A DNA stretch of 41,441 nucleotides from a virus, in the IMG/VR virus record IMGVR_UViG_3300047546_001385, positions 1 to 41,441 of that record. One strand, written 5' to 3'. The position numbers were made by a program, and so were the translations under genes. The notes beneath the pieces are model-generated. The model searched no databases. It saw only the letters and a program-made list of their open reading frames with translations, and was not told where the DNA came from. Below, piece by piece: positions 2,979 through 28,855 of the stretch (its first letter is position 1; each line of letters opens with the position of its first letter).

Positions 2979-3329
2979 ATGCGAAACCTTGAATCTCTTG
3001 TCAAAGCAATGCAGTTACTCAAGCAGGTGCACCCACAATTAAGGGTGTCGCAGGTTGAGTTCCTGCTCACCGTGGCTCAAAACCCCAACCGCTCTCAGTC
3101 CGAACTGGCCATCGAGTGCGGCTACACCCTCGCTGCTGTGTCCCGCCTGGTGGACACCATGGGCGAGACCGGCAGACGAGACGGAAAAGGCGGCGCCTTG
3201 GGCCTGCTCCAGGCCAAGCCCGATCCAAAAGACGACCGCTACATGCTCGTCTCGTTGACACCAAAAGGGAAGAACTTGATCAAACTCTTGGAGGAATTGA
3301 CCCTTGGCAGTAAGACAAGCGGGGACTAG
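2979..3329 (+). CDS. MarR-like winged-helix transcription regulator, 116 aa
   Basis: The protein fits a MarR-type winged helix-turn-helix: helix 1 (residues 1-15), SQVEFLLTVAQNP, then the HTH segment SELAIECGYTLAAVSRLVDTM with the recognition helix around AAVSRLVDT, a wing with DPKDDRYMLVSLTPKG, and a C-terminal helix. MarR proteins are dimeric DNA-binding repressors or activators. It lies directly upstream of the integrase and overlaps it by 26 bases, so the pair is probably one transcript. A role in controlling integration or lysogeny is inferred. At 116 aa it is shorter than most MarR proteins (about 140), so the dimerisation helices are reduced. ATG 2979 is chosen because the frame opens there right after the inverted repeat. 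Confidence 0.75.
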   Translation: MRNLESLVKAMQLLKQVHPQLRVSQVEFLLTVAQNPNRSQSELAIECGYTLAAVSRLVDTMGETGRRDGKGGALGLLQAKPDPKDDRYMLVSLTPKGKNLIKLLEELTLGSKTSGD

Positions 3330-4347
3330 GTGGAAAGCTTTTGCTGAACACCTAGGCAAAAGACAATCCAAAACATTTGACACCAAGTTAGAAGCTGAGC
3401 AATGGGAGGCCGCCACGCTTGCCATCTGGGGCAAGGAGGAGCGGGCTGAACGGGAGCGGGTTGAGGCCGCACCCAAGGGCTCAATGGGGGACCTGCTCCG
3501 GGTGGCCCAAGGCCTCGATTGGGCCGGGAAACATCAAGGCCAGGCCGAAGCGGCTGAACGCCTGATCCGCCTCCACTTCGGAGCGCGGACGCTGCCCTGC
3601 GAGATCGACGCTCGTGCGATCGACGACTTGGTGATCTGGCTGCGCAACAAAGGGCCCAACGGGAACGGCTGCAGCAATGCCTCTATCAACCGCTACCTGT
3701 CAGCCCTGAGCGTGCTGCTGAAGCGTGCCCAGCGGCTCGGCATGATCCAGGAGGTGCCGCTGTTCCCAGAGCGCCGGCTGCTCAAGGAGTCCGAACCGCG
3801 GGACCTAGTGCTGCCCGAGGAGTGGCTGGCTGAACTGCTGGACGTGATGGAGAAGAAGGAGCAGCGCCTTGAGGTGGCTGTGACCTTGTTCCTGTGGCAC
3901 ATGGGCTGCCGTGTGGGTGAGGCCCTGAAGCGTGGTGACAAGCCAGGCCTGCTCTGGGATCGGGTGAACCTCGAGCAAAAGTCCATCAGCTTCGTCAAAA
4001 CCAAGGGCTGTATGCCCCGGCGTCTGCCCATGCCGCGGCCAGTACAAGCACTGATGCGTCAGTTGCGCGGGCAGGATCCTGAGCGGGTGTTCCCGATCGC
4101 TTACCGCCCGTACCTCGATCACTACGGGGAAGCTGTGCACGAAGCCTGCGATCGGCTGGGCTTGAGCCCTTCTGTCCGGCAGGAATGGTGCGTCCACACG
4201 CTGCGTCACACCTGCCTAACCAACCTGGCCAGGAAGGGGTGGAACGCGAGCGCTATTCAACAGTGGGGTGGGCACAAATCGCTGCAGGTCACGCAGCGGT
4301 ACGTTCACCACTCAGCTATTGCGCTGGAGGAGCTCGTGGACTGTTAA
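3304..4347 (+). CDS. int: Tyrosine recombinase (phage integrase), 347 aa
   Basis: Catalyses site-specific strand exchange between attP and attB through a covalent 3'-phosphotyrosine intermediate. The N-terminal arm- and core-binding regions span about residues 1-170; the catalytic domain follows. Visible catalytic residues are Arg203 (GCRVGEAL), His298 and Arg301 (HTLRH), His324 (GGH) and the nucleophile Tyr333 (QRYVHH), so the set is complete. The start is TTG 3304, supported by GGAGG at 3290-3294, nine bases upstream, inside the end of the MarR gene. The stop lies in a copy of the 14-bp element. The tRNA-Leu-like segment 80-120 bases downstream is the expected attP. This suggests the phage can integrate or did so in its recent past, although most T7-like phages are strictly lytic. 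Confidence 0.93.
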   Translation: MAVRQAGTRWKAFAEHLGKRQSKTFDTKLEAEQWEAATLAIWGKEERAERERVEAAPKGSMGDLLRVAQGLDWAGKHQGQAEAAERLIRLHFGARTLPCEIDARAIDDLVIWLRNKGPNGNGCSNASINRYLSALSVLLKRAQRLGMIQEVPLFPERRLLKESEPRDLVLPEEWLAELLDVMEKKEQRLEVAVTLFLWHMGCRVGEALKRGDKPGLLWDRVNLEQKSISFVKTKGCMPRRLPMPRPVQALMRQLRGQDPERVFPIAYRPYLDHYGEAVHEACDRLGLSPSVRQEWCVHTLRHTCLTNLARKGWNASAIQQWGGHKSLQVTQRYVHHSAIALEELVDC

Positions 4348-4357: not shown

Positions 4358-4413
4358 GCGTGTGAGACTGAGTTGCGGGCCGCGCAACTACCACGCGCAA
4401 CTAAATCGCCCAA

Positions 4414-4507
4414 ATCCCAGTGGGAGCGTGCCGGAATTGGTAGACGGACTCGACTCAAAAGCGAGAGCTGGATTGCCACGAGTCAACTACCGCGCCACCA
4501 CTGGGAT
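4414..4507. repeat. 10-bp inverted repeat flanking the tRNA-like segment
   Basis: ATCCCAGTGG at 4414-4423 and its exact complement CCACTGGGAT at 4498-4507 enclose the tRNA-Leu-like sequence. These could be integrase arm sites, or a stem that presents the segment in RNA. Confidence 0.6.
4429..4465 (+). other. attP: Putative attP core: 5' half of tRNA-Leu(CAA)
   Basis: TGCCGGAATTGGTAGACGG is the D-arm signature of bacterial tRNA-Leu. It is followed by an anticodon arm with loop CTCAAAA (4454-4460, anticodon CAA). The 3' half does not form a normal T-arm (no TTCGA loop) and the acceptor strands do not pair, so this is a tRNA fragment and not a working tRNA gene. Temperate phages often carry such a piece as attP so that the host tRNA is rebuilt on integration, and the marine podovirus P-SSP7 is known to carry a tRNA-Leu match just after its integrase gene. 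The predicted host site is the tRNA-Leu(CAA) gene. Confidence 0.75.
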
Positions 4508-4527: not shown

Positions 4528-6924
4528 ATGTCGAATCAACCGTTAAACGGTGGCAAGCAACTCGATTGCGCCGGCTACGCGGAACAAACCGAGCTGGAAT
4601 CGTGGTCTAAATCCACAGGTGCAGGCCGCGTACTTTCCGGCAAATGGGAACAAGGAGCAGCTGGTGCACTGGGCAACCATCTGTCCCGTCTTTACCTGAA
4701 AGAAGTCCTCGAGACGTACCGCCGATCGAAGACACAACCCGGGCGGCAGGCCCTGATCTGGGAGCTGATGCACGACGAGAAGGCCGTCGTCCAGGTGGCC
4801 CTCGAGTCGCTGTTCTATCTGCTGGGCAACCTGCACGAGGAGCGCTCCTACAACCAGGTCTGCAGCCAGCTGGGCAAGCGTGCTGAGTACGCCCTCTGGC
4901 TGACACACCCGGTGTGGAAACACAGCTGGCACCTGAAGGGCATTCGCCTGGCCAGCAACGGCGACATGGACATGAAGCTGCTAGTGAAGCGGCTCAAGGA
5001 CAAGGGCTTTGCCAAGGCTGCGCTGTACCGCCCGCTCAGCAACGTCGAACGCATTGCCCTGGGCGCGTTCTTCGTGGAGTGCGTGGCGCAGTGCACCCAC
5101 CTGATCGGGATCGACGTGCGGGGCACCGGCAAAAAGCGGCGCAAGACCATCCACCTGACGCAGATCTACTGGGACTTCCTGCGGCAGTGGCGCCAGAACA
5201 TCGTGATGTTCCGCCCGCTGTACATGCCGATGGTGACGCCGCCGCGGCCGTACACAGAGGCCAATGACGGGGGGTACGAAACGATCCGCTGCCCGGTCAG
5301 CACCGTGGATCCAGCCTTGTTCCACAGGCAGTTCAGACGGGCCAAGCCGGTGATCCTGCAGGCACTGAACACGCTGCAGGCCCAGCCGTACTGCCTGGAT
5401 CACGCGGTGGTGGATCTGCAGCGCAGCTGCTGGGAGCTAGGGCACGAGGTGGGCGACCTGCCGAAGCGTGACCGGATGAGCCGGCCCATCGACAGGGAGT
5501 TCAAGTTCGCTGGACTTGGACCTGAGGCCTACTGGCAGGCGCACTGGGCGTACAAGGCGGATCGGAGGAAAGACCCGCTGCGCAGCAGGTTCGTGAACGG
5601 GCTGATCGGATACGAGCGAGTGAAGGCTTTCACAAATCTTTACCTGGTGCACTTCTTTGACCATCGGGGCCGGATCTACAGCCGCGGCGCCCAGCTCAAC
5701 ATCCAAGGCGGCGAGGTGTACCGCTCGACGTTCAAGTTCGCCCAGCAAGGGCCCATGAAGGGGCACGAGCGCGGGTTTGCCTGGTCCCTGGGTGAATCCA
5801 TGGGCTTGCCGCCCAGCTACGACACCCGCACCCGCTACCTGCAGGAGCACAGCAGCACCATCCGCCAGGTAGGGGAGGACCCGCTCGGCTACGTGGCCTT
5901 CTGGGCTGAGCAGAAAGAACCCTGGCGGTTCATCCAGCTGTGCCGTGACTGGGCCCAGTACATGGACGATCCGGGCTACACGACCGGCACCATCCACTGG
6001 CTCGATCAGACCAGCAGCGGCTACGGACACGCCGCCTGCCTGATGCTCGACCGTCAGCTGGCCAAGTTCACCAACGTGATCGGCCAGAACCCAGCCGATC
6101 TGTACACAGGCGCTGGCCTTGTAACAGATGCACGCCTCAAGGCGCTGCTGCGAGACGAAGAGGACGAGAAGCGACGCCAGATCCTGCAGTGGTGGGTTGA
6201 CTTCAAGCCCGGCCGCAAGCTGTGGAAACAGGTGTTCATGCCCCTCGTCTACGGCAGCACCTTCCAGGGGATGAAGGACACCATCGCCCTGTACCTGCGC
6301 GAAGAGCTGGCCAACTTCCGCACGGAGGAAGGGCTGCGGGTGGTGGAGCTCGCCACGGTGCTGGCCAGCGAGGCCCTTGCGGTGAGCAAGGAGGTGATGC
6401 CCGGGGTGCTGGAGCTGCAGCGCTGGCTCACCAAGCTGGCCCGCATCCAAATGGAGAAGGAGTTCCGCCCGCACTGGTACACACCGGACGGTCTGCTGGT
6501 GGAGGTGTTCCACAGCATCACGTCGCTCGAGCAGATCAAGTTGGTGCTCAGCAATCGGACGGTGCGGATCGCAGCCAGGACAAACGAGGGGGCACCAATG
6601 GATCCACGCCGATCAGCGGCTGGCATCGCTGCCCATTTCGTGCACAGCCAGGACGGGGCGTTCCTCCGCAAGTTCGTGAACCACTGGGCCGGCTACGGGC
6701 ACCCAATCAGCACGGTGCACGACTGCTTCGGCACCACCGTGGACAAGGTGGAGACGATGCGCAGCGAGCTCAACGACCAGTGGGCCAGGTTCTACAGCCA
6801 GGACTATCTGACCCACCTGCAGGGCTACGTGGAGGCCCTGACTGAGCTCGAGGTGCCAGCTCCACCGAAGGTCGGAGACCTGGACCGAAATGAGATTGGG
6901 GAGAATCCCTTCCTCTTCAGTTGA
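4528..6924 (+). CDS. Single-subunit DNA-directed RNA polymerase, T7 type, 798 aa
   Basis: Transcribes the middle and late phage genes from phage-specific promoters. The key residues of the T7 family are present with conserved spacing: Asp493 in motif A (HWLDQTSSGYGH; T7 Asp537), Arg563, Lys567 and Tyr575 in motif B (RKLWKQVFMPLVYGS; T7 Arg627, Lys631, Tyr639), and Asp732 in motif C (HDCFGT; T7 Asp812). The FFDHRGRIYS segment matches the T7 DWRGRVY region. At 798 aa it is shorter than T7 (883), as in cyanopodoviruses. ATG 4528 lies 60 bases after the putative attP core and follows CCTGAGA, so integration at attP would separate the gene from anything upstream. A copy of the 14-bp element lies within codons 6-10. 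Confidence 0.96.
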   Translation: MSNQPLNGGKQLDCAGYAEQTELESWSKSTGAGRVLSGKWEQGAAGALGNHLSRLYLKEVLETYRRSKTQPGRQALIWELMHDEKAVVQVALESLFYLLGNLHEERSYNQVCSQLGKRAEYALWLTHPVWKHSWHLKGIRLASNGDMDMKLLVKRLKDKGFAKAALYRPLSNVERIALGAFFVECVAQCTHLIGIDVRGTGKKRRKTIHLTQIYWDFLRQWRQNIVMFRPLYMPMVTPPRPYTEANDGGYETIRCPVSTVDPALFHRQFRRAKPVILQALNTLQAQPYCLDHAVVDLQRSCWELGHEVGDLPKRDRMSRPIDREFKFAGLGPEAYWQAHWAYKADRRKDPLRSRFVNGLIGYERVKAFTNLYLVHFFDHRGRIYSRGAQLNIQGGEVYRSTFKFAQQGPMKGHERGFAWSLGESMGLPPSYDTRTRYLQEHSSTIRQVGEDPLGYVAFWAEQKEPWRFIQLCRDWAQYMDDPGYTTGTIHWLDQTSSGYGHAACLMLDRQLAKFTNVIGQNPADLYTGAGLVTDARLKALLRDEEDEKRRQILQWWVDFKPGRKLWKQVFMPLVYGSTFQGMKDTIALYLREELANFRTEEGLRVVELATVLASEALAVSKEVMPGVLELQRWLTKLARIQMEKEFRPHWYTPDGLLVEVFHSITSLEQIKLVLSNRTVRIAARTNEGAPMDPRRSAAGIAAHFVHSQDGAFLRKFVNHWAGYGHPISTVHDCFGTTVDKVETMRSELNDQWARFYSQDYLTHLQGYVEALTELEVPAPPKVGDLDRNEIGENPFLFS
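4543..4556 (-). promoter_or_regulatory. 14-bp element, copy 5 (minus orientation)
   Basis: Reads TTGCCACCGTTTAA on the minus strand, identical over 14 bases to copy 3. It overlaps the first codons of the RNA polymerase gene, a good place for a repressor to block expression. Confidence 0.4.
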
Positions 6925-7606: not shown

Positions 7607-8135
7607 GCACTTCAACCGGCATCGTCCACGCAGGAAGCCGGGTGAATACCGCTCAAAGCTAGAGGAGCAAGTCGGGGCGGCCCTCACCAAGCAGGGCCTC
7701 GACTATCAGTACGAATCGGAAAAGTTCCGGTATGTGCTGCACAAGAAGTACACACCCGACTTCCGAGTTGGCAACGTGTACATCGAGGTCAAAGGCTGGT
7801 GGCCTCCAGCTGAACGCACCAAGTTCTTGGCAGTCATGCTCTCCAATCCAGGGCTACCGATCTTTGTAGCCCTTCAACGTCCGTTCGCGACGCTGAACAA
7901 GAAGAGCAAGACGACCATCGCCGAGTGGTGTCAGAAGCATGGAATCGCCTGGTCCCCGATCCCAATCCCCTCCGACTTCCTGGATCAATGGCTCCGTGGA
8001 TCGAGACCCACATTCCATGTCCCGCCCCGGACTGCGAAAGCAGCGACGGAGCAAGCGTCGATGACAAAGGAGTTGTCCACTGTTTTGTTTGCGATCGAAA
8101 CCTCAACCCAGATGGAACTGAATGGAGGCCCATGA
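7599..8135 (+). CDS. Endonuclease I (Holliday-junction resolvase), gp3-like, 178 aa
   Basis: Resolves branched phage DNA and helps degrade host DNA. The PD-(D/E)XK active site of T7 gp3 is visible: Glu in YRSKLEEQV (about residue 22), Asp in YTPDF (about 53), and Glu-x-Lys in YIEVKGWW (about 64-66). EWCQKHGIAW matches the conserved EFCEKHGIKF of T7. T7 gp3 is 149 aa; here about 30 extra C-terminal residues are encoded where the frame overlaps the primase gene for about 148 bases. The tail is Ser/Thr/Ala-rich and probably unstructured. It starts at ATG 7599, inside the end of the preceding gene. Confidence 0.9.
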   Translation: MLEHFNRHRPRRKPGEYRSKLEEQVGAALTKQGLDYQYESEKFRYVLHKKYTPDFRVGNVYIEVKGWWPPAERTKFLAVMLSNPGLPIFVALQRPFATLNKKSKTTIAEWCQKHGIAWSPIPIPSDFLDQWLRGSRPTFHVPPRTAKAATEQASMTKELSTVLFAIETSTQMELNGGP

Positions 8136-9676
8136 AAACGGGAGTCCGCACAGCGGCCAGCTATCTGGACCGTGTGCGCAACGAGGCACCACTCAGCCTC
8201 AAGGATCTACCTCGCACTGATGAGCCGATTCGCCTACGCAAAGGTGAGGCGTTAGCGCTTGACACACGCTGCATCCAGCAGCAGACCTGCAAGCGCTACG
8301 ACTACATCGTCGGTTCCTACAACGGACACGAAGCGCAGTTCGCCAACTACCGGGATAGCGATGGCGTCGTCATTGCGCAGCACATCCGCTATGGCGACAA
8401 GCAGTTCTCCTGGATCAGGCCCAAGGGTTCCAAGCTCCAGCTGTTTGGCCAGCACCTAGGCAGCGACGGCGTGCTCGTGATCACCGAAGGTGAGATCGAC
8501 TGCATGAGCGTCTATCAAGTGATGCACGAGTGGGGCTTCCACAGGAAGTTCTGCGTCGTGTCCATCGCTGACGGTGCAGCCAGCGCCAAGAAGAACGTCA
8601 CCGAACAACTCAGCTGGGTGCTTGGCTTCACGCTTGTCGTGATCTTCATGGATCAGGACGAGCCAGGGGTCAAGGCTGCCAATGCCCTAGCCGAAGTGAT
8701 CGGCCACAAGGCAGCAGTCGTAGGCAATTTCCCCTACAAGGACGCCAACGAGGCGCTGCAGGCTGGCGACGACAAGGCCATCCGCGAGGCAATCCGCACT
8801 GCCAAACGGCACAGGCCCGACACCGTTGTCCACGCCCCGGACCTGATCGAAAAGATCCTCAAGCCCGAGCATCGCTACGGCCTGCCTTATCCATGGGACG
8901 GCTGGAACACGATGACCGAGGGCATGAAGCCAGGTCAGCTGGTGATGGTGGCCGGCGGAACTGGCATCGGCAAGAGCCTGTTCACTCGCAGCATCTGCCT
9001 CAACCTCTGTCAGCAAGGCGTCAAGTGCGCCTACATCGGACTGGAGGAAAGCTGCGAGACCAGCCTCGAACGGATGCTCAGCGAAGTGCTGGCCTACGCC
9101 CCGGGGTTTCACCTTGACACCGCCGAGCAGCGGGCCCGCCGTGATCCAGACGTGATCCGCAACGCGCTCAACACCTTCGCCGACAACCTGTTCTTACTTG
9201 ATCAGTTTGGGAGCGAAGACTTTGACCGTTTTGTTGCCACCGTTAAACATTACGTGCTGGGTGAACAGTGCCAGGTTGTCTTCCTCGACCACTTCTCTTT
9301 GCTTGCTGATGGTATTTCCCTTAACACTGATCAGCGTCGGGCTATTGATAAGTGCATCAAGGATCTCAAGACGTTGTGCGTCGAGCTCAACTTCACGATG
9401 GTCGTCGTGTGCCATCTCTCCCGAGGCAGTGGTATTGGCCCATCTCACGAAGAAGGAGGCGAGCCGACTCTTGCGGAACTTAGAGGAAGTCACTCACTAG
9501 CCCAGATCCCAGACTTCGTGGTGATGCTTCAGCGGAATCCTCGAGCTGAGGACAAGGTTGATGCGAACACAACGAACTGCTGGTTGAAGAAGAACCGAGT
9601 CAAAGGCGAGCTTGGCCTTATGTCCAGGCTCCAGTTCCTTGAGTCCTGTCGCTTCCATGAAATTAAGACACACTGA
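7988..9676 (+). CDS. Bifunctional primase-helicase, gp4-like, 562 aa
   Basis: Unwinds the replication fork and makes RNA primers. The zinc-binding N-terminus has CPAPDC ... CFVC (about residues 11-36). The TOPRIM primase core includes VLVITEGEIDCMSVYQ and the FMDQDEPG segment. The RecA-type helicase has Walker A at residues 322-330 (AGGTGIGKS, Lys329) and Walker B near VVFLDHFSLL, followed by VVVCHLSR and AELRGSHSLAQIPD. Length matches T7 gp4 (566). The frame is open from 7925; ATG 7988 (MAPWIETHIPC) is preferred because the zinc motif begins right after it, as in T7. It overlaps endonuclease I heavily and ends inside the next small gene. Confidence 0.95.
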   Translation: MAPWIETHIPCPAPDCESSDGASVDDKGVVHCFVCDRNLNPDGTEWRPMKTGVRTAASYLDRVRNEAPLSLKDLPRTDEPIRLRKGEALALDTRCIQQQTCKRYDYIVGSYNGHEAQFANYRDSDGVVIAQHIRYGDKQFSWIRPKGSKLQLFGQHLGSDGVLVITEGEIDCMSVYQVMHEWGFHRKFCVVSIADGAASAKKNVTEQLSWVLGFTLVVIFMDQDEPGVKAANALAEVIGHKAAVVGNFPYKDANEALQAGDDKAIREAIRTAKRHRPDTVVHAPDLIEKILKPEHRYGLPYPWDGWNTMTEGMKPGQLVMVAGGTGIGKSLFTRSICLNLCQQGVKCAYIGLEESCETSLERMLSEVLAYAPGFHLDTAEQRARRDPDVIRNALNTFADNLFLLDQFGSEDFDRFVATVKHYVLGEQCQVVFLDHFSLLADGISLNTDQRRAIDKCIKDLKTLCVELNFTMVVVCHLSRGSGIGPSHEEGGEPTLAELRGSHSLAQIPDFVVMLQRNPRAEDKVDANTTNCWLKKNRVKGELGLMSRLQFLESCRFHEIKTH

Positions 9677-9911
9677 CGGAATCATCAGCAACGAGGGCTT
9701 TGATCCTCGAAACCGTGGCGTCACCTTTTCCGACAATCCCAAGCACCCACTATGGAAAGTCAAGGTCGAGTTCCCAGCGATGAAGCCGATGGTCGAGACG
9801 ATCAAAGCGCCGACATACGTGTCTGCACTGGCATACGCAAGGCGTCGCTATCCAGATGCAAAAGCTGTGACGTACCTGGGGAAGGCGGGGCCCTTACCCC
9901 ATCTCAGCTGA
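9657..9911 (+). CDS. Hypothetical protein, 84 aa
   Basis: ATG 9657 lies within the last codons of the helicase gene, a typical tight overlap; the frame is also open upstream to 9612. The protein (MKLRHTDGIISNEGFDPRN...) is basic and rich in Pro and Lys, with KHPLWKVKVEFPAMKP and a helix with ALAYARRRYPDAKAVTYLG. The last segment resembles small phage DNA-metabolism accessory proteins but no family is recognised. It occupies the place where T7 has small genes before the DNA polymerase. Confidence 0.6.
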   Translation: MKLRHTDGIISNEGFDPRNRGVTFSDNPKHPLWKVKVEFPAMKPMVETIKAPTYVSALAYARRRYPDAKAVTYLGKAGPLPHLS

Positions 9912-9946
9912 CAGCCTCCGGCTACAAGCAGATTGAGGTGGAGTTT

Positions 9947-10075
9947 GTGCGAGATCTTCACGAGCTCGCTATCCACAAGTTCAACGAATCGAAGGGCGAC
10001 TTTGCCCTTGGCTTCTGGAACGGATACGGCTGTGCCCTCAAGGCCATCATCGAAAAGCTACAGCAATCCTTATGA
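9947..10075 (+). CDS. Small protein, 42 aa, paralogue of the gene at 10456
   Basis: Frame 9752-10075 has a shadow-like first half, but its end is convincing. GTG 9947 with GAGG at 9935-9938 gives 42 aa ending FWNGYGCALKAIIEKLQQS. The pattern L-x-x-x-AI, N-x-x-G, W-x-GY-x-x-AL recurs in the gene at 10456, so the two are probably paralogues. It ends with TGA overlapping the next ATG (ATGA). The start is uncertain; GTG 9938 is possible. Function unknown. Confidence 0.5.
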   Translation: MRDLHELAIHKFNESKGDFALGFWNGYGCALKAIIEKLQQSL

Positions 10076-10278
10076 GATTCATTGACAAATGCACGAGCGC
10101 CTACTGGGGCGCAGACAACAATGACTACACCATTGATGCTGCTGATCGGATGCGGGGTGTGCTTGCTCTGGTTGCGCAGGAGATTGAAGCGATGGCGCCG
10201 TCAAAGACGGTTGCCAAGATATGTCATCTCCAGTGCATGGAGATTGCCGACAAGATCAGAAGACTTAGTGATGAGTAA
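10072..10278 (+). CDS. Hypothetical protein, 68 aa
   Basis: ATG 10072 overlaps the previous stop (ATGA). The protein is all-helical by appearance (YTIDAADRMRGVLALVAQEI... and KICHLQCMEIADKIRRLSD), small and soluble. There is no recognised family. It is part of a tight chain of overlapping small genes between the helicase and exonuclease genes, at the place where other T7-like phages encode DNA polymerase. Confidence 0.6.
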   Translation: MRFIDKCTSAYWGADNNDYTIDAADRMRGVLALVAQEIEAMAPSKTVAKICHLQCMEIADKIRRLSDE

Positions 10279-10456
10279 GCAGGAACTGATGGTTGAGTGC
10301 ATCTCCCGCAATGGCTTCAGCGAGCTGTACGTCGGCTACGCAGACGGCGCTTGCCAAACCTTCTACACCCTGGCTGAGCTCACGGAATGGTTCGTCTCCA
10401 AAGGCGTGCCAGAAGACGACGAGCTCTGGATTGAACTTCAACACCTACAAAACTGA
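10271..10456 (+). CDS. Hypothetical protein, 61 aa
   Basis: ATG 10271 overlaps the end of the preceding gene by 8 bases and its stop overlaps the next ATG (TGATG). The frame upstream (open to 10082) lies over another gene and is rejected. The sequence alternates short strands with an acidic helix (YADGACQTFYTLAELTEWFV). Function unknown. Confidence 0.6.
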   Translation: MSKQELMVECISRNGFSELYVGYADGACQTFYTLAELTEWFVSKGVPEDDELWIELQHLQN

Positions 10457-10635
10457 TGACAACACCAAAGGAAGTAAAGGCACCTGTGCCGATCGACGTG
10501 CCACGCGATGCGATTGCTGACTTATACCGCGCAGCGATCAAGCACCTGAAGGACAACCGCGGCGGCCAGGCGGAAGTCTGGTGGGACGGCTACATCCGCG
10601 CCCTTGAACACGTACTTGAAATGGAGGGTCAGTGA
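10456..10635 (+). CDS. Small protein, 59 aa, paralogue of the gene at 9947
   Basis: Starts in a TGATG overlap with the previous gene. After a Pro/Val-rich N-terminus (MTTPKEVKAPVPIDVP) comes LYRAAIKHLKDNRGG and WWDGYIRALEHVLEM, which matches the 42-aa product at 9947 in spacing and key residues (AI, N, G, W-GY-AL). Two helices are likely. Two degenerate copies a few hundred bases apart suggest an old local duplication. Function unknown; the stop overlaps the GTG of the zinc-ribbon gene. Confidence 0.6.
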   Translation: MTTPKEVKAPVPIDVPRDAIADLYRAAIKHLKDNRGGQAEVWWDGYIRALEHVLEMEGQ

Positions 10636-10928
10636 TCATGCCACTCAATCAGATGACGCCAGACTGCCCCGGCTGCGGAGCATGGATCACGAAGGTGATC
10701 ACAACAAAGTTCGACAGCGAGTGCCAGCATGTGATCCGTCGAAGGCACTGTGAATACTGCGGCCACCGCTTCTACACCAAGCAGTATCACGAAACACTGG
10801 TGAAGGTGAAATGGACCGGGACTGGGAAAGGGACCATTCCTACTGTCGTGGAAGACATTCCAACCAAGTTCAAAGGGCAATTATCTGAGCCGCTCTCTAT
10901 CAAGCCCAAAGGGATTGACGCAGCATGA
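10632..10928 (+). CDS. Zinc-ribbon protein, 98 aa
   Basis: Contains CPGCG (about residues 12-16) and CEYCG (about 40-44) with an intervening basic stretch VIRRRHC and the following HRFYTKQYHET. This layout matches the zinc ribbon of NrdR-like regulators (CPxC ... RRRxCxxCGxRFxTxE), but the ATP-cone domain is absent. The C-terminal 50 residues are Lys/Pro-rich. It could bind DNA or RNA as a small regulator, or assist the exonuclease encoded next (ATGA overlap). Start: GTG 10632 in a GTGA overlap, or ATG 10638. Confidence 0.65.
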   Translation: MIMPLNQMTPDCPGCGAWITKVITTKFDSECQHVIRRRHCEYCGHRFYTKQYHETLVKVKWTGTGKGTIPTVVEDIPTKFKGQLSEPLSIKPKGIDAA

Positions 10929-11761
10929 AGATCATCCTTGATTCCGACATGCTTCTGTTCCGCGTGACGAGCGCGACGGAAGTGGAGATGGAGCTGGAGC
11001 CTGACGTGTGGATTCGGCACAGCGAACTGCCCGAAGCACGCGAGGCGTACTGGACTGCAGTGGATCAGTGGTGCGAGATGTATGGCTGCACGTTGGATGA
11101 CGTGCTGCACTGCTTCACCGACCGCAGCACCTTCAGAAAGCGCATTGATCCTGGCTACAAGGCCAACCGGAAAGGCAAGCCCAAGCCCCTGGGCTACGGG
11201 GCCCTTAAGAGCCAGCTGCTCCAGGAGAGCGGGGCCTGGCTGCACCGAGAGATCGAGGCCGATGACCTGATCGGGATCTTCGCCACCATGCCCGACTTGA
11301 AAGATGAGGGCGTGGTGATTGCCTCGGGGGACAAGGACCTGATGCAGATCCCTGGTGAGCACATCTGGTTCGAGACCAGCAAGGAACCAGACCTGGAGCC
11401 AGGCCTTACTGTCGCCACTCGTGACGGCTGTGTCATCAAGATCAATACCAACGAACATGCGGAACGCTTCACTTACCAGCAATACCTATCGGGCGACAGC
11501 ACCGATGGAATACCTGGTTGCCCAGGACTGGGTGCGGTCGGAGCAAAACGAATCGCAAAGGATCTCCCCGTCGCAGAGCCAGTGGATTGCTGGGAAGCGA
11601 TTGTTCGGTCGTATGAGGAGGCACAGAGGAAGAAGAAACTTGATCTATACAACGCATCCCAATTCGCTACGCAACAGGCGCGACTGGTAAGGATCCTGCG
11701 CCATGGCGAGTATGACTTCATCACGCACGAGGTAACACTGTGGAATCCCCCGACACGCTGA
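10925..11761 (+). CDS. 5'-3' exonuclease, gp6-like, 278 aa
   Basis: Member of the FEN/5'-nuclease (PIN-like) family, equivalent to T7 gp6, which removes primers and degrades host DNA. Visible metal-binding acidic residues are in IILDSDMLLFR (N-terminal Asp), EADDLIGI (Glu/Asp pair, about residues 112-115) and ASGDKDLMQIPG (Asp pair, about 136-138). A helix-hairpin-helix-like region GDSTDGIPGCPGLGAVGAKR follows at about residue 190. Length is close to T7 gp6 (300). It overlaps the upstream gene (ATGA) and the next gene by 22 bases. The usual upstream neighbour, DNA polymerase, is missing. Confidence 0.92.
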   Translation: MKIILDSDMLLFRVTSATEVEMELEPDVWIRHSELPEAREAYWTAVDQWCEMYGCTLDDVLHCFTDRSTFRKRIDPGYKANRKGKPKPLGYGALKSQLLQESGAWLHREIEADDLIGIFATMPDLKDEGVVIASGDKDLMQIPGEHIWFETSKEPDLEPGLTVATRDGCVIKINTNEHAERFTYQQYLSGDSTDGIPGCPGLGAVGAKRIAKDLPVAEPVDCWEAIVRSYEEAQRKKKLDLYNASQFATQQARLVRILRHGEYDFITHEVTLWNPPTR

Positions 11762-11922
11762 AACGCATCATCGCTCAACAGTTGACAGATGAAGTGCTCG
11801 ATGCACTGGACAAGCTGTACCCAGAGAAGACACCAGAGCTGAATGACTCTGTTGATCAGATTCGGTACGCTGCAGGGCAGCGGTCTGTCATCCGTTTCTT
11901 GAGGAGTCTCACTGATGGCTAA
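11740..11922 (+). CDS. Hypothetical protein, 60 aa
   Basis: GTG 11740 lies within the end of the exonuclease gene; GAGG about 7 bases upstream supports this start. The product is helical and acidic (MESPDTLKRIIAQQL, VDQIRYAAGQRSVIRFLRSL). A C-terminal segment of the type IRYxxGxRSVIxFL is common in small phage head-operon proteins preceding the portal, but I cannot name a family. It overlaps the next gene by 8 bases. Confidence 0.65.
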   Translation: MESPDTLKRIIAQQLTDEVLDALDKLYPEKTPELNDSVDQIRYAAGQRSVIRFLRSLTDG

Positions 11923-12853
11923 GAAGAATCAGCAGAAGCTCAGTCAGGCCGTCAGGAATGTCGGCCCGGTTATCAGCAAGAGCGAAGCCCAACAAGTTGC
12001 CAAAGCAACGGGCAAGTCTGTTGAGCAAGTCGTTGCAAAGGCGACAAATGCTGGGGTCGGTGTTGGGTCAGCTCTTGTCAACCAAGTCAGCAAGGCGATC
12101 TCTAGCCCGGCTGCACAGTTCACCACCCCGGCCCAAACACTTCAGGCCCTAGCTCCACTGCAAAACCTGCGGCTAAACAAGGGCACTGCCTATTACGGCA
12201 GCAGCACGACAACAATCCCAGCCACACAAACGCGCACTCCCAACGGCGGGGTCGCCACCACAGCAGGGAGCACTACCTACAACCCGATCGTGCTGCCACG
12301 CAACACAGCCGTGGCAGGCGGTGGCAACACCACGCAGAACAACGGCGGGAACAACAACGCCAACGATCCGTACCAGGACCTGCGAGATCAGATCGCCGCG
12401 GCGCAGCAAACAATCAACGACCTGCAGAACCAGCAAGTCGATCCATACGCCGACATAACCAACCTGCTCGCCGAGCAACAGGCCGCTGCAGCCGCGCAGC
12501 AGGAGGCCATGGCGGCGCAGGCGGCACAGCAACAGCAGGCCCTGCAGGACTTGATGATCCAGCAGCAGCAGGCCTACGAAACACAGATGGCCGATGCTCG
12601 GCGGCAGCAGGAGGTGATGGCGGCACAGGCAGCGGAAGCCCAGCGCCAAGCCATGGCAGTTGCCAATGCCTACGTGCCAGGCCTTGAGCCCACTGCTGCT
12701 GCTCCTGCCCTGGGCGACGCACGGAACATGACCCGTTCCTCTGCCACGAACACACTCTCCAACCTGTCGATCCTCACAGGCATGGGCGTTAGTGGTGGCG
12801 TCACCGCTACTCCCGCTGCCGCTTCTCCCCTCGCCGGCCTGCAAATCGCATGA
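11915..12853 (+). CDS. Gln/Ala-rich putative virion protein, 312 aa
   Basis: Located immediately before the portal gene and overlapping it (ATGA), which in cyanopodoviruses is the site of a variable structural protein. Layout: a basic N-terminus (residues 1-60), a Thr/Gly/Asn-rich low-complexity part (about 85-150), a long Gln/Ala coiled-coil-like segment (about 155-250: AAQQEAMAAQAAQQQQALQD and similar), and an Ala/Gly/Pro-rich tail. There is no enzyme motif. The composition suggests an elongated, possibly trimeric structural or decorating protein. ATG 11915 follows TGAGGAGTCTCACTG, with GAGGAG as Shine-Dalgarno. Confidence 0.65.
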   Translation: MAKKNQQKLSQAVRNVGPVISKSEAQQVAKATGKSVEQVVAKATNAGVGVGSALVNQVSKAISSPAAQFTTPAQTLQALAPLQNLRLNKGTAYYGSSTTTIPATQTRTPNGGVATTAGSTTYNPIVLPRNTAVAGGGNTTQNNGGNNNANDPYQDLRDQIAAAQQTINDLQNQQVDPYADITNLLAEQQAAAAAQQEAMAAQAAQQQQALQDLMIQQQQAYETQMADARRQQEVMAAQAAEAQRQAMAVANAYVPGLEPTAAAPALGDARNMTRSSATNTLSNLSILTGMGVSGGVTATPAAASPLAGLQIA

Positions 12854-23804: not shown

Positions 23805-24056
23805 TCAAGCCAGAGCCGCTTCAACCTGTTGGCGAGACGTAAATCCCCAGGCAGCAGCCGCGCCTGCGTTCCACTCCTGGCGAATCACAGGGGCGATGTA
23901 GCCGTCATCACCTGGCTGCAGCGCCTTGTCATAGTCAGCGGGGTAGACCGCATCGTCAAAGGTGATGTAATCGTTCAACAGGCTGGTGAGAAATGCCGTC
24001 CGCTCCTCGCCGGCTTCGGCCGCAGTCAGGTCGGACGGAGTGTTGATGATCAGCAT
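23805..24056 (-). CDS. Hypothetical protein downstream of the DGR reverse transcriptase, 83 aa
   Basis: ATG 24056 overlaps the reverse-transcriptase stop by 7 bases. The protein starts MLIINTPSDLTA, a start reminiscent of small phage proteins that accompany tail-fibre genes (INTPxDL), and continues with an acidic central part and Trp/Ala-rich helix (RQEWNAGAAAAWGF). It is acidic and soluble, with no membrane span. Whether it is part of the diversification system (a third component) or a tail-fibre chaperone cannot be told from sequence. The overlap shows that it is translated with the reverse transcriptase. Confidence 0.6.
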   Translation of the reverse strand: MLIINTPSDLTAAEAGEERTAFLTSLLNDYITFDDAVYPADYDKALQPGDDGYIAPVIRQEWNAGAAAAWGFTSRQQVEAALA

Positions 24057-25024
24057 GGTGAAGCGAGCCCCAGAGATACAAGGCCATTCTGACCATCACC
24101 ATGGCGCAGATGCCCCATCCAGGCAATCTGCGAGCACTTCCAGCCTTCGTAATCTTCGTGCTGGAGCAGTAGCTTGAGCCGCCTCCGCTGGCGGATCATC
24201 GACTGCCGCTTCACCAGCTTGAACTTCCGCCGGATACGGAACCCGCAGAACGTGACCCCGCGTTCAACCGGCCCTAGGCTCCACTTGCCGATGTGTTGAT
24301 TCATCTCGCCTGCGACGAAGGCGCAGATCCGATCCTTTAGCGCCAGGCCGGCCACCTTTGACGGCACGATGATCACCGCATCATCCATGTAGCGCACGAA
24401 GCAACCGATGCCCTGCTGGGCAATGAAGCGGTCTAACTTGCCGCCCCAGTAGTTGGCAAAGGTCTGGCTGGTGAGTGCGCCGATTGGCACGCCAGAAGGT
24501 TGCACCGACAGCACCTGCTCGATCAACAGCAACGTGCGCCGGCAGGCCAGCTTCTTCCCCAGGTAGGCCAGCAAAAGATCCTGCGGAATAGTTGGGAAGA
24601 ACTTGCTGAAGTCCACGTGCAGCACCCACGCCTCTGGGTTCTGGCGCATCAGCTGCTGCATCCGCGTGACACATCTGTGCGTGCCCAGTCCGACCCTGCA
24701 GGCGAACACCTGCGGCATCATCGCTGCATCCAAGATCGGCCCGACCACCTGGATCAGGGCGTGGTGCAGCACCCGGTCACGAAAGCTCTGGCAGGCAATC
24801 GTGCGCTTCTTGGGATCAACAATGTCGAATTGCAGCTGCGGGTCTGGTTTCCAGCCGCCTTCAATCAACCGCAGTTGAAGATGCCTGAGGTTGGCATAGG
24901 CGTACTCCTTGAAGCGCAGATAGGAGCCGCTGTAGGTCTTGCCGCGCCTTGCTTCTGCATAAGCCGCAAGCAAATTATCCCACTGGTAAATCTGCTCGTA
25001 GAGGTTGCGAAACTTCTTGCCCAT
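24050..25024 (-). CDS. DGR reverse transcriptase, 324 aa
   Basis: Copies the template-repeat RNA into cDNA with errors at adenines, which then replaces the variable repeat. Fingers/palm motifs are DFSKFFPT (Asp138, first catalytic Asp), the DGR-type motif 4 IGALTSQ (181-187; retroviral and group II enzymes have QGxxxSP here) and YMDD (212-215). There is no maturase, endonuclease or RNase H domain. Size and many segments match the BPP-1 enzyme (328 aa), including the N-terminus MGKKFRNLYEQI and LRFKEYAYANL. The template repeat lies just upstream on the same strand. The final 25 residues differ from what I expect of the family but no frameshift is evident. Confidence 0.97.
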   Translation of the reverse strand: MGKKFRNLYEQIYQWDNLLAAYAEARRGKTYSGSYLRFKEYAYANLRHLQLRLIEGGWKPDPQLQFDIVDPKKRTIACQSFRDRVLHHALIQVVGPILDAAMMPQVFACRVGLGTHRCVTRMQQLMRQNPEAWVLHVDFSKFFPTIPQDLLLAYLGKKLACRRTLLLIEQVLSVQPSGVPIGALTSQTFANYWGGKLDRFIAQQGIGCFVRYMDDAVIIVPSKVAGLALKDRICAFVAGEMNQHIGKWSLGPVERGVTFCGFRIRRKFKLVKRQSMIRQRRRLKLLLQHEDYEGWKCSQIAWMGHLRHGDGQNGLVSLGLASPC

Positions 25025-25311
25025 TGGAAGGTGACGGCAGGTTTCGATGAGCTACTCCCTGCCATTGCCACCACTCGGCCCTGAGTTCGCCGAAGCTGGA
25101 CTTGATGGCTGGCACCTGGTTGGCACCGGCCTGCTGCCCCGTGGAAACAGCAGAGCGTGGTGGTGTTTGGCAGTGGCCACGGCCGCAAAACGCGCCCCAA
25201 TGTTGTTGTTGGAGTTCCAAGGAGTGTTGTTCCAGTTAGCAGCACGCGAACCGGAATTCGACGTGTTGTTCCAGTTGCCCCCGAGGATGACGGCGCTCCC
25301 ATCAAGCCCGC
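25025..25311 (-). ncRNA. DGR template RNA region
   Basis: The 287-base gap between avd and the reverse transcriptase carries the template repeat (25180-25296) and a 155-base spacer. In BPP-1 the equivalent transcript, including the spacer next to the reverse-transcriptase gene, is the RNA on which cDNA synthesis is primed. The open frames seen here on either strand are by-products of the repeat and are not considered genes. Confidence 0.8.
25180..25296 (-). repeat. DGR template repeat (TR)
   Basis: 117 bases aligned without gaps to the variable repeat at a constant offset of 571. 104 positions are identical and 13 differ; all 13 are A in the template on the coding strand (T on the plus strand). 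The template holds 26 adenines, mostly in AAC codons (it would read GGNWNNTSNSG ... ANWNNTPWNSNNNIG), the codon choice typical of DGR templates because AAY can mutate to many residues but not to stop codons. Confidence 0.97.
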
Positions 25312-25707
25312 TTACACCTTCGCACTTTTCTTCTGTTCGTGCAGCCGCTTGATCCAGCTGCCGAGCATGGCGCCCACCTCGCCGACCAGGGCTTGGCTGG
25401 TCTCCAGCTGGTGTTCGGTCATCAGCTTGCGCTTGTGGTGGACCATGAAGCGCAGCAGCAGGCGCAGTTGCCCCAGGCCCCCGTCAAGCACGTAGCAGCG
25501 GCTGAGCTGATTGGCCTTGATGGCGTCATTGAGCTGTTCAGCCACCAGGAACAACTGACGGATGAACAGCTCGCGGAAGGTGCCGTGCTTGCGGGGGATC
25601 GTCTGCGCGAGCGGGTAAAGGTAGTCGATCACCCGCTCGTACTTCTCGACCATGTAGAGGCCATGAGCCTCCTTGGAGGGATCCGCAGAGGCTCGCTTAC
25701 TGGTCAT
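25312..25707 (-). CDS. avd: DGR accessory variability determinant (Avd), 131 aa
   Basis: Avd is the pentameric, basic four-helix-bundle protein that binds template RNA and the reverse transcriptase and is required for retrohoming. The sequence MVEKYERVIDYLYPLAQTIP, RKHGTFREL, LLRFMVHHKR and the end LVGEVGAMLGSWIKRLHEQ agree closely with BPP-1 bAvd, including length (128 aa there). ATG 25707 is the likely start; the frame is open further upstream but that part lies in the variable repeat. The order target-Avd-TR-RT is the same as in BPP-1. Confidence 0.95.
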   Translation of the reverse strand: MTSKRASADPSKEAHGLYMVEKYERVIDYLYPLAQTIPRKHGTFRELFIRQLFLVAEQLNDAIKANQLSRCYVLDGGLGQLRLLLRFMVHHKRKLMTEHQLETSQALVGEVGAMLGSWIKRLHEQKKSAKV

Positions 25708-25714
25708 GGGAGTC

Positions 25715-25728
25715 GGCCCTGCCGGGCC
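25715..25728 (-). promoter_or_regulatory. Hairpin/cruciform downstream of the variable repeat
   Basis: Perfect 5-bp stem GGCCC / GGGCC with a 4-base loop; on the coding strand the loop reads GGCA. It lies 22 bases after the 3' end of the variable repeat, just past the target stop codon and before avd. DGRs of the BPP-1 type need a short hairpin with a GRNA-like tetraloop at this place for target recognition, and GGCA fits that pattern. The stem is shorter than in BPP-1. Confidence 0.65.
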
Positions 25729-25730
25729 TC

Positions 25731-26978
25731 CTAGCCAAGCACCAGGTGCCCGGCCGCAAAACGCGCCCCAACGCTGTAGTTGGAGGCCCAAGGAGCGTCG
25801 TACCAGTCAGCAGCACGCGAACCGGAATTCGACGTGCTGCCCCAGTCGCCCCCGAGGATGACGGCGCGGGAGAAGCCGCTGTCGTAGACATCGCCTCGAC
25901 CCTCTGTGGGGTTGGTTGTCCAAGCCGCCGGGCTGCCTGCCAGCGCGTAGTCAGAGCCCCACTGCCAGAGCGTTCCTGTGGCCTGTGCCAGGCCGAATTT
26001 GCTGGCTCGCTCCCAGATCACCGTGCCCGGGTCCGTGCCCCGGCTGGTGGCCTCAGGGGCACCAAAGGCAGCGGCAGAAAACTCGCCATAGGACGGCAAG
26101 CGCTTGCCAAAACTGGCCGCCATCTCCGACGCTTCGTACCAGGTGAAGCTGCCATAGGTGGTGCTGCCATTACCGCCGTACTGGGCGGGCACCAGGGGGG
26201 CGCTGGAACCGTCTGCAATCGTGAGCCCGATCTTGCTGCTGGGCACTGCTGAAAACGTGCTGCCGGCATAGCTGGTGGCGCCAGCCAGATAGAGGTCAAT
26301 CCAGAACGCGTCGTTGATGCAAGCCATGCCACGCGGATCTGGGCAGCTGGGCCGATAGGTCAGATCCCAAAGGCTGAACTCCAGAATCTCGGCCGAGCCA
26401 GTCGGGCTGCCGTTGTTCACGGCCGTGGGCCGGCCACTCGGGATGTAGTGGTAGCCGCCAACAATCGAGCCGCCAGTGGCACCCGCCGGTGCTGTGGTGA
26501 AGCTCGCATCGCCCACCAGAGCACCCGTGCTGGGGTTTTGCCAAATGGCGTAATCAGTGTTGTTGCTGTGGCTTGGCATCGTCACAGCTGTAGCTGTGGC
26601 GTAATACTTGCCATTCAGCACAGCACCCGCTGCCACGCTGATTGTGGCCGCAGCTGTTTTGTAGAACAGCGAGCCGCGATACAGCGCCGGACGGCGGTTG
26701 TAATACACAGCTCCGCCGCTCAGCGCTGCAATCGCTTGCGCTGTGCGTTGCGGTGTCATCAGCTTGGTGCTGCTTGCGCCGGCCTCTGCTTCGGCCTGGC
26801 TGGCCACGTCAGCGCTGATCGTTCGGTTCGCGGTCAAATCACCGCCACCGCTCAGCCCCGTGCCTGCGCTAATCGTCCGAGAAGACGGGATCGAAGTCGC
26901 CGTAGTGGCGAGATCATCAACGTTGATTGACTGCGTGCTCGACTCAATCGAGTCGGCTTTGACTTTTCCGTAGGCCAT
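25731..26978 (-). CDS. DGR target: variable tail-fibre tip with FGE/C-type-lectin fold, 415 aa
   Basis: Receptor-binding protein diversified by the DGR. The N-terminus (residues 1-95) resembles fibre stalk segments (ISAGTGLSGGGDLTANRTIS, AEAGASSTKLMTPQRTAQ). Residues about 200-415 look like a formylglycine-generating-enzyme/C-type-lectin domain: FGKRLPSYGEFSAAAFGAPE, GTLWQWGSD, VILGGDW and the end GARFAAGHLVLG. The variable repeat covers residues 371-410. The 11 residues altered from the template are 378, 380, 381, 391, 393, 394, 395, 398, 401, 402 and 403, all in the surface pocket region expected for this fold. The start overlaps the stop of the upstream fibre gene (TAATG), suggesting both are made together. 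Confidence 0.93.
   Translation of the reverse strand: MAYGKVKADSIESSTQSINVDDLATTATSIPSSRTISAGTGLSGGGDLTANRTISADVASQAEAEAGASSTKLMTPQRTAQAIAALSGGAVYYNRRPALYRGSLFYKTAAATISVAAGAVLNGKYYATATAVTMPSHSNNTDYAIWQNPSTGALVGDASFTTAPAGATGGSIVGGYHYIPSGRPTAVNNGSPTGSAEILEFSLWDLTYRPSCPDPRGMACINDAFWIDLYLAGATSYAGSTFSAVPSSKIGLTIADGSSAPLVPAQYGGNGSTTYGSFTWYEASEMAASFGKRLPSYGEFSAAAFGAPEATSRGTDPGTVIWERASKFGLAQATGTLWQWGSDYALAGSPAAWTTNPTEGRGDVYDSGFSRAVILGGDWGSTSNSGSRAADWYDAPWASNYSVGARFAAGHLVLG
25751..25867 (-). repeat. DGR variable repeat (VR)
   Basis: 3' part of the target gene, 117 bases, aligned to the template repeat with 13 substitutions, all at template adenines (eleven codons changed). Its last 21 bases (25751-25771, coding-strand sequence TTGGGGCGCGTTTTGCGGCC plus G) are identical in both repeats and are the likely initiation-of-mutagenic-homing site. 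Similarity ends abruptly at both borders. Confidence 0.97.
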
Positions 26979-28855
26979 TAGAGGATCACCCAGGTGGAGT
27001 TGGCTGAAATGGTGACAGTCGCGCCCGCATCAATTGACACAGGCCCAACTGACGAAGCGTTTTTGCCAGATGGAATCGTGTAACTGGTCGTGATTGCCTG
27101 GTCATTCTGGACAAACACCTTGTCGGTTCCGCCGCCTGTTGCACCAGATGCTGATAAGGCCAGGTCGTAAGCAGACTTGACTGATGCCGGTGTCGCAGCC
27201 GTTGTCGTGCTGGTGCTGCTCGTAGAGTCAGTCAGCTGAACAACTCCTACGTTGACAGTGCTTGCGGCTTGAATTTTGCTGCCGGCAATCGCAGCGCCTG
27301 CGCTAACCTTTGCATCAGTGACACTGCCGTCGGTCGGTGTGCGTACATCAGTAAGCCGAGGATCATTCGTGACGACAACAGCCTGACCACCAACTGCTAC
27401 AGCCCCACCAATCGAAACGGCACCGGACGAATCAATCGCCAGACGGGCGACGCCACCAGTTGCCAGCGCGAGTTCATCCGCCCCAGTTGTAAACAGACCG
27501 GTGTTTGAGTCTCCGTCAAAGGCGTAGCCAGGCGTGGAGGCCGATGTGCTGTTATCACCCAGGATCTGACCGGTCATCGTGCCGCCGGTCAGTGGCAGAC
27601 CACCAGAGCTGGCCACGTTGTCCACGTACTGCTTGGTGGCAGCCTGCAGGTTCTGCGTCGGGTCAGCGTTCAGCGTCAAAGCACCAGTCAGTGTGCCGCC
27701 GCTCTTCTTCAGATACCGAGTGTCAGAGTCGTTAGCGAAGTAGTTCAGCCAGTTCCAGGTCGATCCAGACGTGGTGTACTGCATCCGAACGCTGAGTCCG
27801 GTGTCACCAACGAAGCCAGCAGGACGGTTCGCCAGTGGAGAGAAGCTTTCAATCCCTGTCGAGTTGGCAACCTCAACTGCATCACCATCTGCAGGCGAAG
27901 AGGGAATTGCCGCGACGTTCGCGACAAGCTGGTATTGAACGCTGCTTGCAACGGCGTTCAGAGCCGCAGAAGCGTTGGCGTTCGCAGTATTCGCCGTAGA
28001 CAGCGCGGTTGATGCGTTTGACGCAGCAGTAGTCGCCGTGGCTGACGCTGCGTTGGCGGTGGAAAGCGCAGTATTCGCAGTCGAAAGAGCAGTCGATGCG
28101 TTAGACGCCGCACTGTTGGCGGTGCTGACTGCAGACGCCGCGTTAGTTGCAGCTGTGTTTGCCGTTGTGACAGCAGATGATGCGTTTGTGCTCGCCGTGT
28201 TCGCGGTGTTAAGAGCGGTTGTCGCGTTTGTGCTTGCGGTGTTTGCCGTTGACACAGCAGCACTCGCGTTCGTTGACGCTGTGTTTGCCGTGTTGACCGC
28301 GGCCGAGGCGTTGGTGGCCGCTGTATTGGCCGTCGAGAGGGCCGTTGCTGCAGTCGCCGAGGCGGCGTTCGCTGTTGTTGTTGCCGTCGTTGCGGCAGCT
28401 GTTGCAGCGTTTGCAGCGGTTGTCGCAGCCGTTGCCGCAGCCTCAGCACTGGCCGCTGTTGTCGCCGACTGATTGCCCTGGTCGAAGAGCTCTTGATTGA
28501 GATACGTATTAAAGAGTGACTCGTCGTTCAGCTGATCTGCCGTCAGCAGTGACGAAGGCTGGAAGGTCACATAAGCGGAGGAGGACGGAGTAATCCGCTG
28601 CACCTTCACCCATTCACCCGCAGCAATGCCGGAGGCAAGACGTGCGACCGTACCGCTGGTCACAAAGTCCCACTGGGACGGTCGAGTCAGCTCAGTCCAG
28701 GTCGCACCTTGATTCGCGCTTTTGTAGACGTGTATGTGAGATGGCTCTAGGTATGGGATCGCATTGCCTGTCGTAGATACAAGTGCGAAGTCAACCGTTC
28801 CCGCCGTACCTGCGGTGTAGACATTGCCGCTGTAGGTAAAGGAGGGAGCGGACAT
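26978..28855 (-). CDS. Tail fibre protein with T7 gp17-like N-terminus, 625 aa
   Basis: The N-terminus (about 1-120: FTYSGNVYTAGTAGTVDFAL ... GATWTELTRPSQWDFVTSGT, SLLTADQLNDESLFNTYLNQ) resembles the tail-attachment domain of T7 gp17. Residues 130-300 are Ala/Thr/Asn/Ser repeats of 14 residues, a likely trimeric coiled-coil or helical shaft. The C-terminal part (300-625) includes the AATKQYVDN motif common in phage fibres, GALTLNADPTQNL and an SIGGAVAV-type beta region. The fibre thus ends in a region that may bind the DGR-variable tip protein encoded next, with which it shares a TAATG overlap. ATG 28855. Confidence 0.85.
   Translation of the reverse strand: MSAPSFTYSGNVYTAGTAGTVDFALVSTTGNAIPYLEPSHIHVYKSANQGATWTELTRPSQWDFVTSGTVARLASGIAAGEWVKVQRITPSSSAYVTFQPSSLLTADQLNDESLFNTYLNQELFDQGNQSATTAASAEAAATAATTAANAATAAATTATTTANAASATAATALSTANTAATNASAAVNTANTASTNASAAVSTANTASTNATTALNTANTASTNASSAVTTANTAATNAASAVSTANSAASNASTALSTANTALSTANAASATATTAASNASTALSTANTANANASAALNAVASSVQYQLVANVAAIPSSPADGDAVEVANSTGIESFSPLANRPAGFVGDTGLSVRMQYTTSGSTWNWLNYFANDSDTRYLKKSGGTLTGALTLNADPTQNLQAATKQYVDNVASSGGLPLTGGTMTGQILGDNSTSASTPGYAFDGDSNTGLFTTGADELALATGGVARLAIDSSGAVSIGGAVAVGGQAVVVTNDPRLTDVRTPTDGSVTDAKVSAGAAIAGSKIQAASTVNVGVVQLTDSTSSTSTTTAATPASVKSAYDLALSASGATGGGTDKVFVQNDQAITTSYTIPSGKNASSVGPVSIDAGATVTISANSTWVIL
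27956..28342 (-). repeat. 42-bp (14-residue) tandem repeats in the fibre gene
   Basis: Residues 172-300 of the fibre run in a 14-aa period of the type A-V-S-T-A-N-T-A-S-T-N-A-S-A, with six consecutive copies in phase and two further, less regular ones. Fourteen residues equal two heptads, so a coiled-coil shaft is likely. Such repeats can change length by recombination between isolates. Confidence 0.85.

Follow-up and report, generated by a model that had tools for sequence, protein, structure and literature searches.

Parts of the cassette

We analyzed a diversity-generating retroelement (DGR) in a viral DNA of 41,441 bp, the linear IMG/VR virus record IMGVR_UViG_3300047546_001385 (the whole of this stretch is called the window below). 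An earlier note on this DNA had placed a target gene, avd, a template repeat (TR) and a reverse transcriptase (RT) in this order on the minus strand, and its coordinates, strand and order of parts were all correct. In addition to these parts, we found a DGR RNA (RF03022), a DNA hairpin behind the variable repeat (VR) and a conserved 83-aa gene downstream. The minus-strand order is a T7 gp17-type tail fiber gene, the target (mtd), avd, TR, DGR RNA, RT and the 83-aa gene:

26978..28855, minus strand: tail fiber gene immediately before the target, its product having an N-terminal domain of the T7 gp17 type (Pfam Phage_T7_tail, 1.6e-10)
25731..26978, minus strand: target, Mtd-like receptor-binding protein of 415 aa (Pfam mtd_2nd, 3e-16; PHROG 11262, 1e-122; PDB 1yu4)
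25751..25867, minus strand: VR, target codons 371-410 (TR/VR alignment)
25715..25728, minus strand: hairpin/cruciform site after the mtd stop and before avd, GGCCC-GGCA-GGGCC (locus comparison)
25312..25707, minus strand: Avd accessory protein of 131 aa (Pfam bAvd, 3e-21; NCBIfam DivGenRetAVD; PDB 4dwl, 2.6e-31)
25180..25296, minus strand: TR of 117 nt with 26 adenines, mostly in AAC codons (TR/VR alignment)
25030..25156, minus strand: DGR RNA, a structured spacer that separates TR from RT (71.9 bits with Rfam RF03022 Phage_DGR)
24050..25024, minus strand: DGR RT of 324 aa (FVRYMDD, IGALTSQ motif; PHROG 1423, 2e-84; PDB 8ub7; tree)
23805..24056, minus strand: conserved 83-aa gene downstream of RT (homologues in relatives)

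The YMDD of the RT is intact, and the protein matched the DGR RT of phage BPP-1 (PDB 8ub7) at 1.3e-66 versus only about 5e-18 for group II intron RTs. Avd passed the NCBIfam cut-off (NF033474, DivGenRetAVD) and also matched PDB 8ub7. The RNA spacer exceeded the RF03022 gathering cut-off of 50, as did its counterparts in BPP-1 and in 15 of 15 scanned intact relatives. Residues 104-414 of the target matched all solved Mtd variants (PDB 1yu4, Mtd, 1e-58); its C terminus is a C-type-lectin variable domain, and Pfam FGE-sulfatase matches the protein as well. By these similarities the target is truly homologous to BPP-1 Mtd, and its probable carrier is the T7-type tail fiber encoded at 26978..28855. 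The 83-aa gene was present in 43 of the 46 loci of RT relatives, the remaining three contigs ending before its place, and it also follows mtd in most relatives that have no DGR. Its similarity to bbp4 of BPP-1 is weak (E=0.002), with size and place being equal. Because it follows mtd with or without a DGR and resembles bbp4 in place and size, this suggests that it serves Mtd rather than retrohoming.

Adenine-specific changes in the window and its relatives

TR and VR aligned over 117 nt without gaps and differed at 13 of the 26 template adenines (10 A>G, 2 A>T and 1 A>C) and at none of the 91 other positions. The probability that all 13 differences fall on adenines by chance is 1.7e-10, and the adenine-only pattern described in the earlier note held on realignment. 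Fifteen TR codons bear adenines, which allows about 2e15 possible proteins, and no adenine change in the TR can produce a stop codon. A degenerate VR pattern run against IMG/VR retrieved only three known contigs and thus yielded no additional alleles for the TR of the window.

The earlier note had proposed examining the VR in relatives. Over 33 independent intact loci (window included), TR and VR differed at 510 of 898 adenines versus 25 of 2949 other positions, showing that changes concentrate on template adenines. Diversifying selection acts strongly on receptor-binding tips, and cassettes do recombine between phages, so that VR diversity could also be attributed to recombination among phage variants or to ordinary positive selection instead of retrohoming. 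However, the changes are limited to the adenines of a separate, non-coding TR, which would not be expected from selection, and the non-adenine sites are almost identical across the 33 loci. Since the changes track template adenines, selection or recombination alone was rejected as the source of the adenine-only pattern, and we give this explanation practically no chance.

Two pairs of near-identical loci were informative about the timing of these changes. Loci L031 and L032 come from different metagenomes and share 99.9% identity across 6.8 kb. They differ at 4 VR positions, all at adenines, versus 3 positions in the 6698 nt outside (p=1.7e-6). Loci L020 and L021, both from one metagenome, agree fully in RT and TR and differ at 8 VR positions, again all at adenines, versus 5 in 2889 nt (p=4.5e-9). 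Because both pairs diverge in VR at adenines only, hypermutation appears to be recent in this family, as seen in relatives rather than in the window itself. Two further observations concern the repeats. The TRs of L036, L012 and L035, with 13, 21 and 23 adenines left, respectively, and position 9 of the L013 TR carry VR-like substitutions where other TRs have adenine; these templates look as if they had been overwritten themselves. In addition, the VR of L024 has lost 60 nt, in frame, between AAC-rich repeats (L024:4190-4330 compared with L023:2870-3060), as expected from template jumping in reverse transcription.

The 25 non-adenine differences comprised 18 T-to-G, 2 T-to-A and 0 T-to-C changes at 742 template T positions, with the remaining 5 at 2207 C or G positions, where changes are thus very rare (Fisher p 1e-8). 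T-to-G recurs at TR positions 10, 42 and 97. This could reflect a second, weaker mutagenic channel in the cyanophage-clade RT, in which dC mis-inserted opposite template U would give T-to-G in VR, an idea that we hold tentatively and rate at somewhat under an even chance.

Proposed function and loss of the cassette

Homing in BPP-1 needs a hairpin just behind VR, and the hairpins of phage DGRs have a GC stem of 7-10 bp and a GRNA loop (PMC3240598). We found a hairpin 20-23 nt after VR in 34 of 34 intact loci compared, with a stem of 5-7 bp and a GNYA loop, and also in the Synechococcus siphoviruses S-CBS1 and S-CBS3. Its stem changes in coordination between GGCCC/GGGCC and GGCGC/GCGCC, and the loops over 36 loci were GACA (21), GCCA (7), GGCA (5), GTCA (2) and GTTA (1). 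In the window the loop GGCA fits GRNA and the stem has 5 bp, the short stem being a small departure from the BPP-1 type. By every feature tested save the exact form of the hairpin, the cassette is of the BPP-1 type.

All parts of the cassette, the adenine-specific signature and the recent VR-only divergence between near-identical relatives lead us to conclude with high confidence that the window carries a complete, recently functional BPP-1-type DGR, in which adenine-mutagenic retrohoming would diversify an Mtd-like receptor protein and which has passed between picocyanobacterial phages. BPP-1 is our guide to how cDNA synthesis would be primed, what the hairpin would do, where the protein would sit in the virion and how host range would be affected. 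By analogy, the RNA of the TR and the RF03022 spacer would be bound by Avd and the DGR RT and reverse-transcribed into a cDNA whose bases are random wherever the template has adenine. This cDNA would be installed at the mtd-like gene's 3' end in place of the resident VR, with identity to VR and the hairpin behind it as guides. The mutated residues would belong to the C-type-lectin head, and the protein itself is probably located on the T7-type tail fiber; progeny would therefore differ in receptor specificity.

Several points weigh against this interpretation. The identity of TR and VR breaks off abruptly at the downstream end, the 5-bp stem in the window is shorter than the 7-10 bp of other phage DGRs, and non-GRNA loops occur in 10 of the 36 loci. 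The position of Mtd in the virion and its receptor are presumed. An AlphaFold2 model of the target built from 17 homologues was unusable (mean predicted local distance difference test score of 37) and was discarded, the sequence matches to solved Mtd being used instead. Finally, the divergence of L020 and L021 might conceivably come from assembly chimerism, as both derive from one metagenome and the L021 contig ends in the cassette, a problem of which L031 and L032 are free.

In some relatives, internal deletions have repeatedly stripped the cassette down to a fixed mtd. In S-CBS1 and S-CBS3, mtd, the hairpin, about the last 40 RT codons and the 83-aa gene remain. L056 has 23 avd codons fused to the last 18 RT codons, L061 has 60 avd codons fused to the RT tail, and at other loci the 83-aa gene comes directly after mtd. 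Because the deletion end points differ, DGR loss is recurrent. Such decay, common in the family and leaving mere remnants of avd or RT in S-CBS1, S-CBS3, L056 and L061, raises the question of whether the window holds a relic, that is, a cassette active in an ancestor whose homing has ceased in this phage, with VR as a frozen allele. The eroded TRs of L036, L012 and L035 and the short hairpin stem would agree with this. However, the RT, Avd, TR with its 26 adenines, RNA and hairpin of the window are all intact, and VR-only divergence is seen in relatives. Moreover, the VR has no substitution outside adenines, and homing would therefore be later than any drift. Hence, we consider a relic improbable and favor a recently functional DGR.

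Spread among cyanophages and comparison with known systems

IMG/VR contained 46 relatives of the RT, with 76-93% identity, and 47 of the target. The cassette is thus common there and spread over several lineages of cyanophages, siphoviruses among them, and the suggestion that such DGRs are rare was wrong. In the IQ-TREE phylogeny, the cyanophage RTs (n=47) formed one clade on a long branch (support 100/100), sister to BPP-1 (100/96) and within the DGRs, and the DGR RTs (n=58) were split from group II intron RTs (100/99). The tree asked for in the earlier note therefore placed the window RT inside the DGR clade. The BPP-1 likeness behind its description of a proteobacterial-phage-type cassette stands; recent borrowing does not, as the 47 RTs form a fully supported long-branch clade of their own. 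A single scan of cellular genomes by RT alignment, with two peptide patterns, found one relative that is 34% identical, which leaves absence from cells unproven.

The carriers include the T7-like lineage of the window (G001), podoviruses similar to the cyanopodovirus S-SRP02 (G002, G004 and G005) and S-CBS-like siphoviruses; at least two lineages of T7-like phages and the S-CBS-type siphoviruses thus have the cassette. Because one RT clade spans these phages, the cassette has passed from one morphotype to another. In the siphovirus L005, for instance, the structural proteins are mostly 94-98% identical to those of S-CBS3, and the RT is 89% identical to that of the window. Approximately unbiased (AU) tests rejected the siphoviral RTs as one clade (p-AU 5e-52) and likewise the S-SRP02-like RTs (3e-47). 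A single clade was not rejected for the RTs of the window's T7-like lineage (p-AU 0.285), and because of this value transfer is demonstrated for the siphoviral and S-SRP02-like RTs, the window's lineage alone being excepted. This indicates that a unit consisting of mtd, avd, TR, RT and the 83-aa gene has been exchanged between unrelated picocyanobacterial phages. Target residues 1-90 are unrelated between the siphoviral and most podoviral versions, and residues 93-370 are 67-95% identical, pointing to an Mtd-like protein made of an exchangeable N-terminal adaptor and a common head.

In G023, which is closely related to the window (terminase 96%, capsid 97% and neighbor g25 94% identical), the cassette is absent and an unrelated 791-aa protein lies between the fiber gene and g25; this receptor-type protein takes the place of the cassette (L135:13294-15666). 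The 58.6-kb record IMGVR_UViG_3300020179_000036 contains two cassette copies (L009 and L011) that are separated by 40 kb and agree exactly in VR but not in their flanks; this pair was set aside as evidence of activity because the contig is possibly a chimeric assembly. At another locus, an abiF RNA (RF03085, 52.9 bits; L002:3994-4030) lies downstream of the DGR, possibly as an abortive-infection element beside the cassette.

The type of phage and its host were examined using other genes of the window:

3304..4347, plus strand: tyrosine integrase (Pfam Phage_integrase, 4.8e-19)
4413..4460, plus strand: putative attP, the 5' half of tRNA-Leu, 66 nt behind the integrase (95.8% to the S-CBP3 site)
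4528..6924, plus strand: T7-type RNA polymerase (Pfam RNA_pol, 1.4e-43; 41% to Krakvirus S39C11)

A T7-type RNA polymerase, portal, capsid, tail tubes and terminase are all present, as in T7-like phages (Autographiviridae). A family A DNA polymerase is usual in T7-like phages and not strictly defining, AP013549 being classed in Autographiviridae without one; a search for PF00476 gave no match in the window, nor in any of the four relatives tested, one of which was AP013549. The replication genes of window positions 4528-12853 and of AP013549 include those for a single-stranded DNA-binding protein, an endonuclease, a primase-helicase and an exonuclease. In T7-like cyanophages, attP follows immediately after the integrase and consists of the first half of tRNA-Leu (PMC8776855). 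The half-gene in the window, where no complete tRNA was found, has 95.8% identity to a site in Synechococcus phage S-CBP3 that follows the integrase there at a distance of 73 nt. Because of this attP-like site and the cassette homologues in Synechococcus isolates, the host is very probably a Synechococcus/Cyanobium-type cyanobacterium. The RNA polymerase and capsid genes are closest to Krakvirus S39C11, an uncultured Mediterranean phage without known host, and some other portal matches are roseophages and pelagiphages, which would fit a non-cyanobacterial host such as an alphaproteobacterium and a wrong cyanophage label. Against this, the half-gene is shared with S-CBP3, the portal is nearest to Prochlorococcus phage P-RSP2 (51%) among cultured phages, the lysin C39 domain matches Synechococcus phage S-SRP02 at 78% nucleotide identity, and cassette homologues occur in S-CBS1/S-CBS3 and in S-SRP02-like contigs; we therefore judge another host unlikely. 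The RT tree, the Avd and Mtd homologues, the T7-type genes and the attP-like tRNA-Leu support the claim that a T7-like cyanophage carries a complete DGR of the BPP-1 type, with the host part being very probable.

The DGRs of cyanobacterial cells share the DGR principle; their targets are cellular rather than phage tail proteins, and they occur in filamentous and other taxa (PMC7517822). DGRs were reported as absent from Synechococcus and Prochlorococcus genomes (PMC7517822). Roux et al. mined >30,000 metagenomic DGRs, with phage clades mostly of gut hosts and a main text without cyanophages (PMC8144416). In the open-access literature we found no description of a DGR in a cyanopodovirus, and "undescribed", as the earlier note had put it, holds to that extent. 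These sequences may lie unrecognized inside earlier metagenome surveys.

The closest named genome, Krakvirus S39C11 (AP013549, Autographiviridae), is syntenic throughout (portal 69%, capsid 70% and terminase 71% identical), but it has no DGR and encodes a 1892-aa putative lectin at the mtd-DGR place. S-SRP02 is T7-like with the same MarR-integrase-RNA polymerase order, and its relatives G002, G004 and G005 bear the cassette, whereas S-SRP02 as isolated lacks both Mtd and RT. S-CBS1 and S-CBS3, annotated with mtd, have the same hairpin behind VR as the window; their 83-aa gene is 70% identical to its counterpart there, and their Mtd shows 65-77% identity across residues 91-413. Unlike the window, the two siphoviruses have avd, TR and most of RT deleted, and their receptor protein is therefore fixed. 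The loss of the DGR from these cultured mtd carriers would explain how the cassette escaped notice in culture collections.

Receptor change is a main route by which cyanobacteria escape phages. An exchangeable, recently active phage-borne cassette in T7-like and siphoviral cyanophages would make the host-range evolution of abundant primary producers directly testable, the test material being 117 bases of VR in existing metagenomes.

BPP-1 and the window have in common Avd, the RF03022 RNA, the RT clade, the Mtd family, adenine-specific changes and a hairpin behind VR. The BPP-1 order mtd-avd-TR-brt-bbp4 is repeated in the window, with a small gene overlapping the RT end, and the TR codons are almost those of BPP-1 (GGC AAC TGG AAC AAC ACG TCG AAY ...). 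In contrast, the window RT is only 38% and Mtd 42% identical, the RT belongs to a separate long-branch clade, the TR has 117 nt (134 in BPP-1) and the hairpin stem 5 bp (8 in BPP-1), the probable host is cyanobacterial, and the N-terminal adaptor of Mtd is different and exchangeable. Altogether, the type itself, the BPP-1 DGR, is known; new are a cyanophage-wide DGR clade, the cassette exchange and repeated decay, and a possible minor T-to-G class, which give BPP-1-type DGRs a new and ecologically important phage group.

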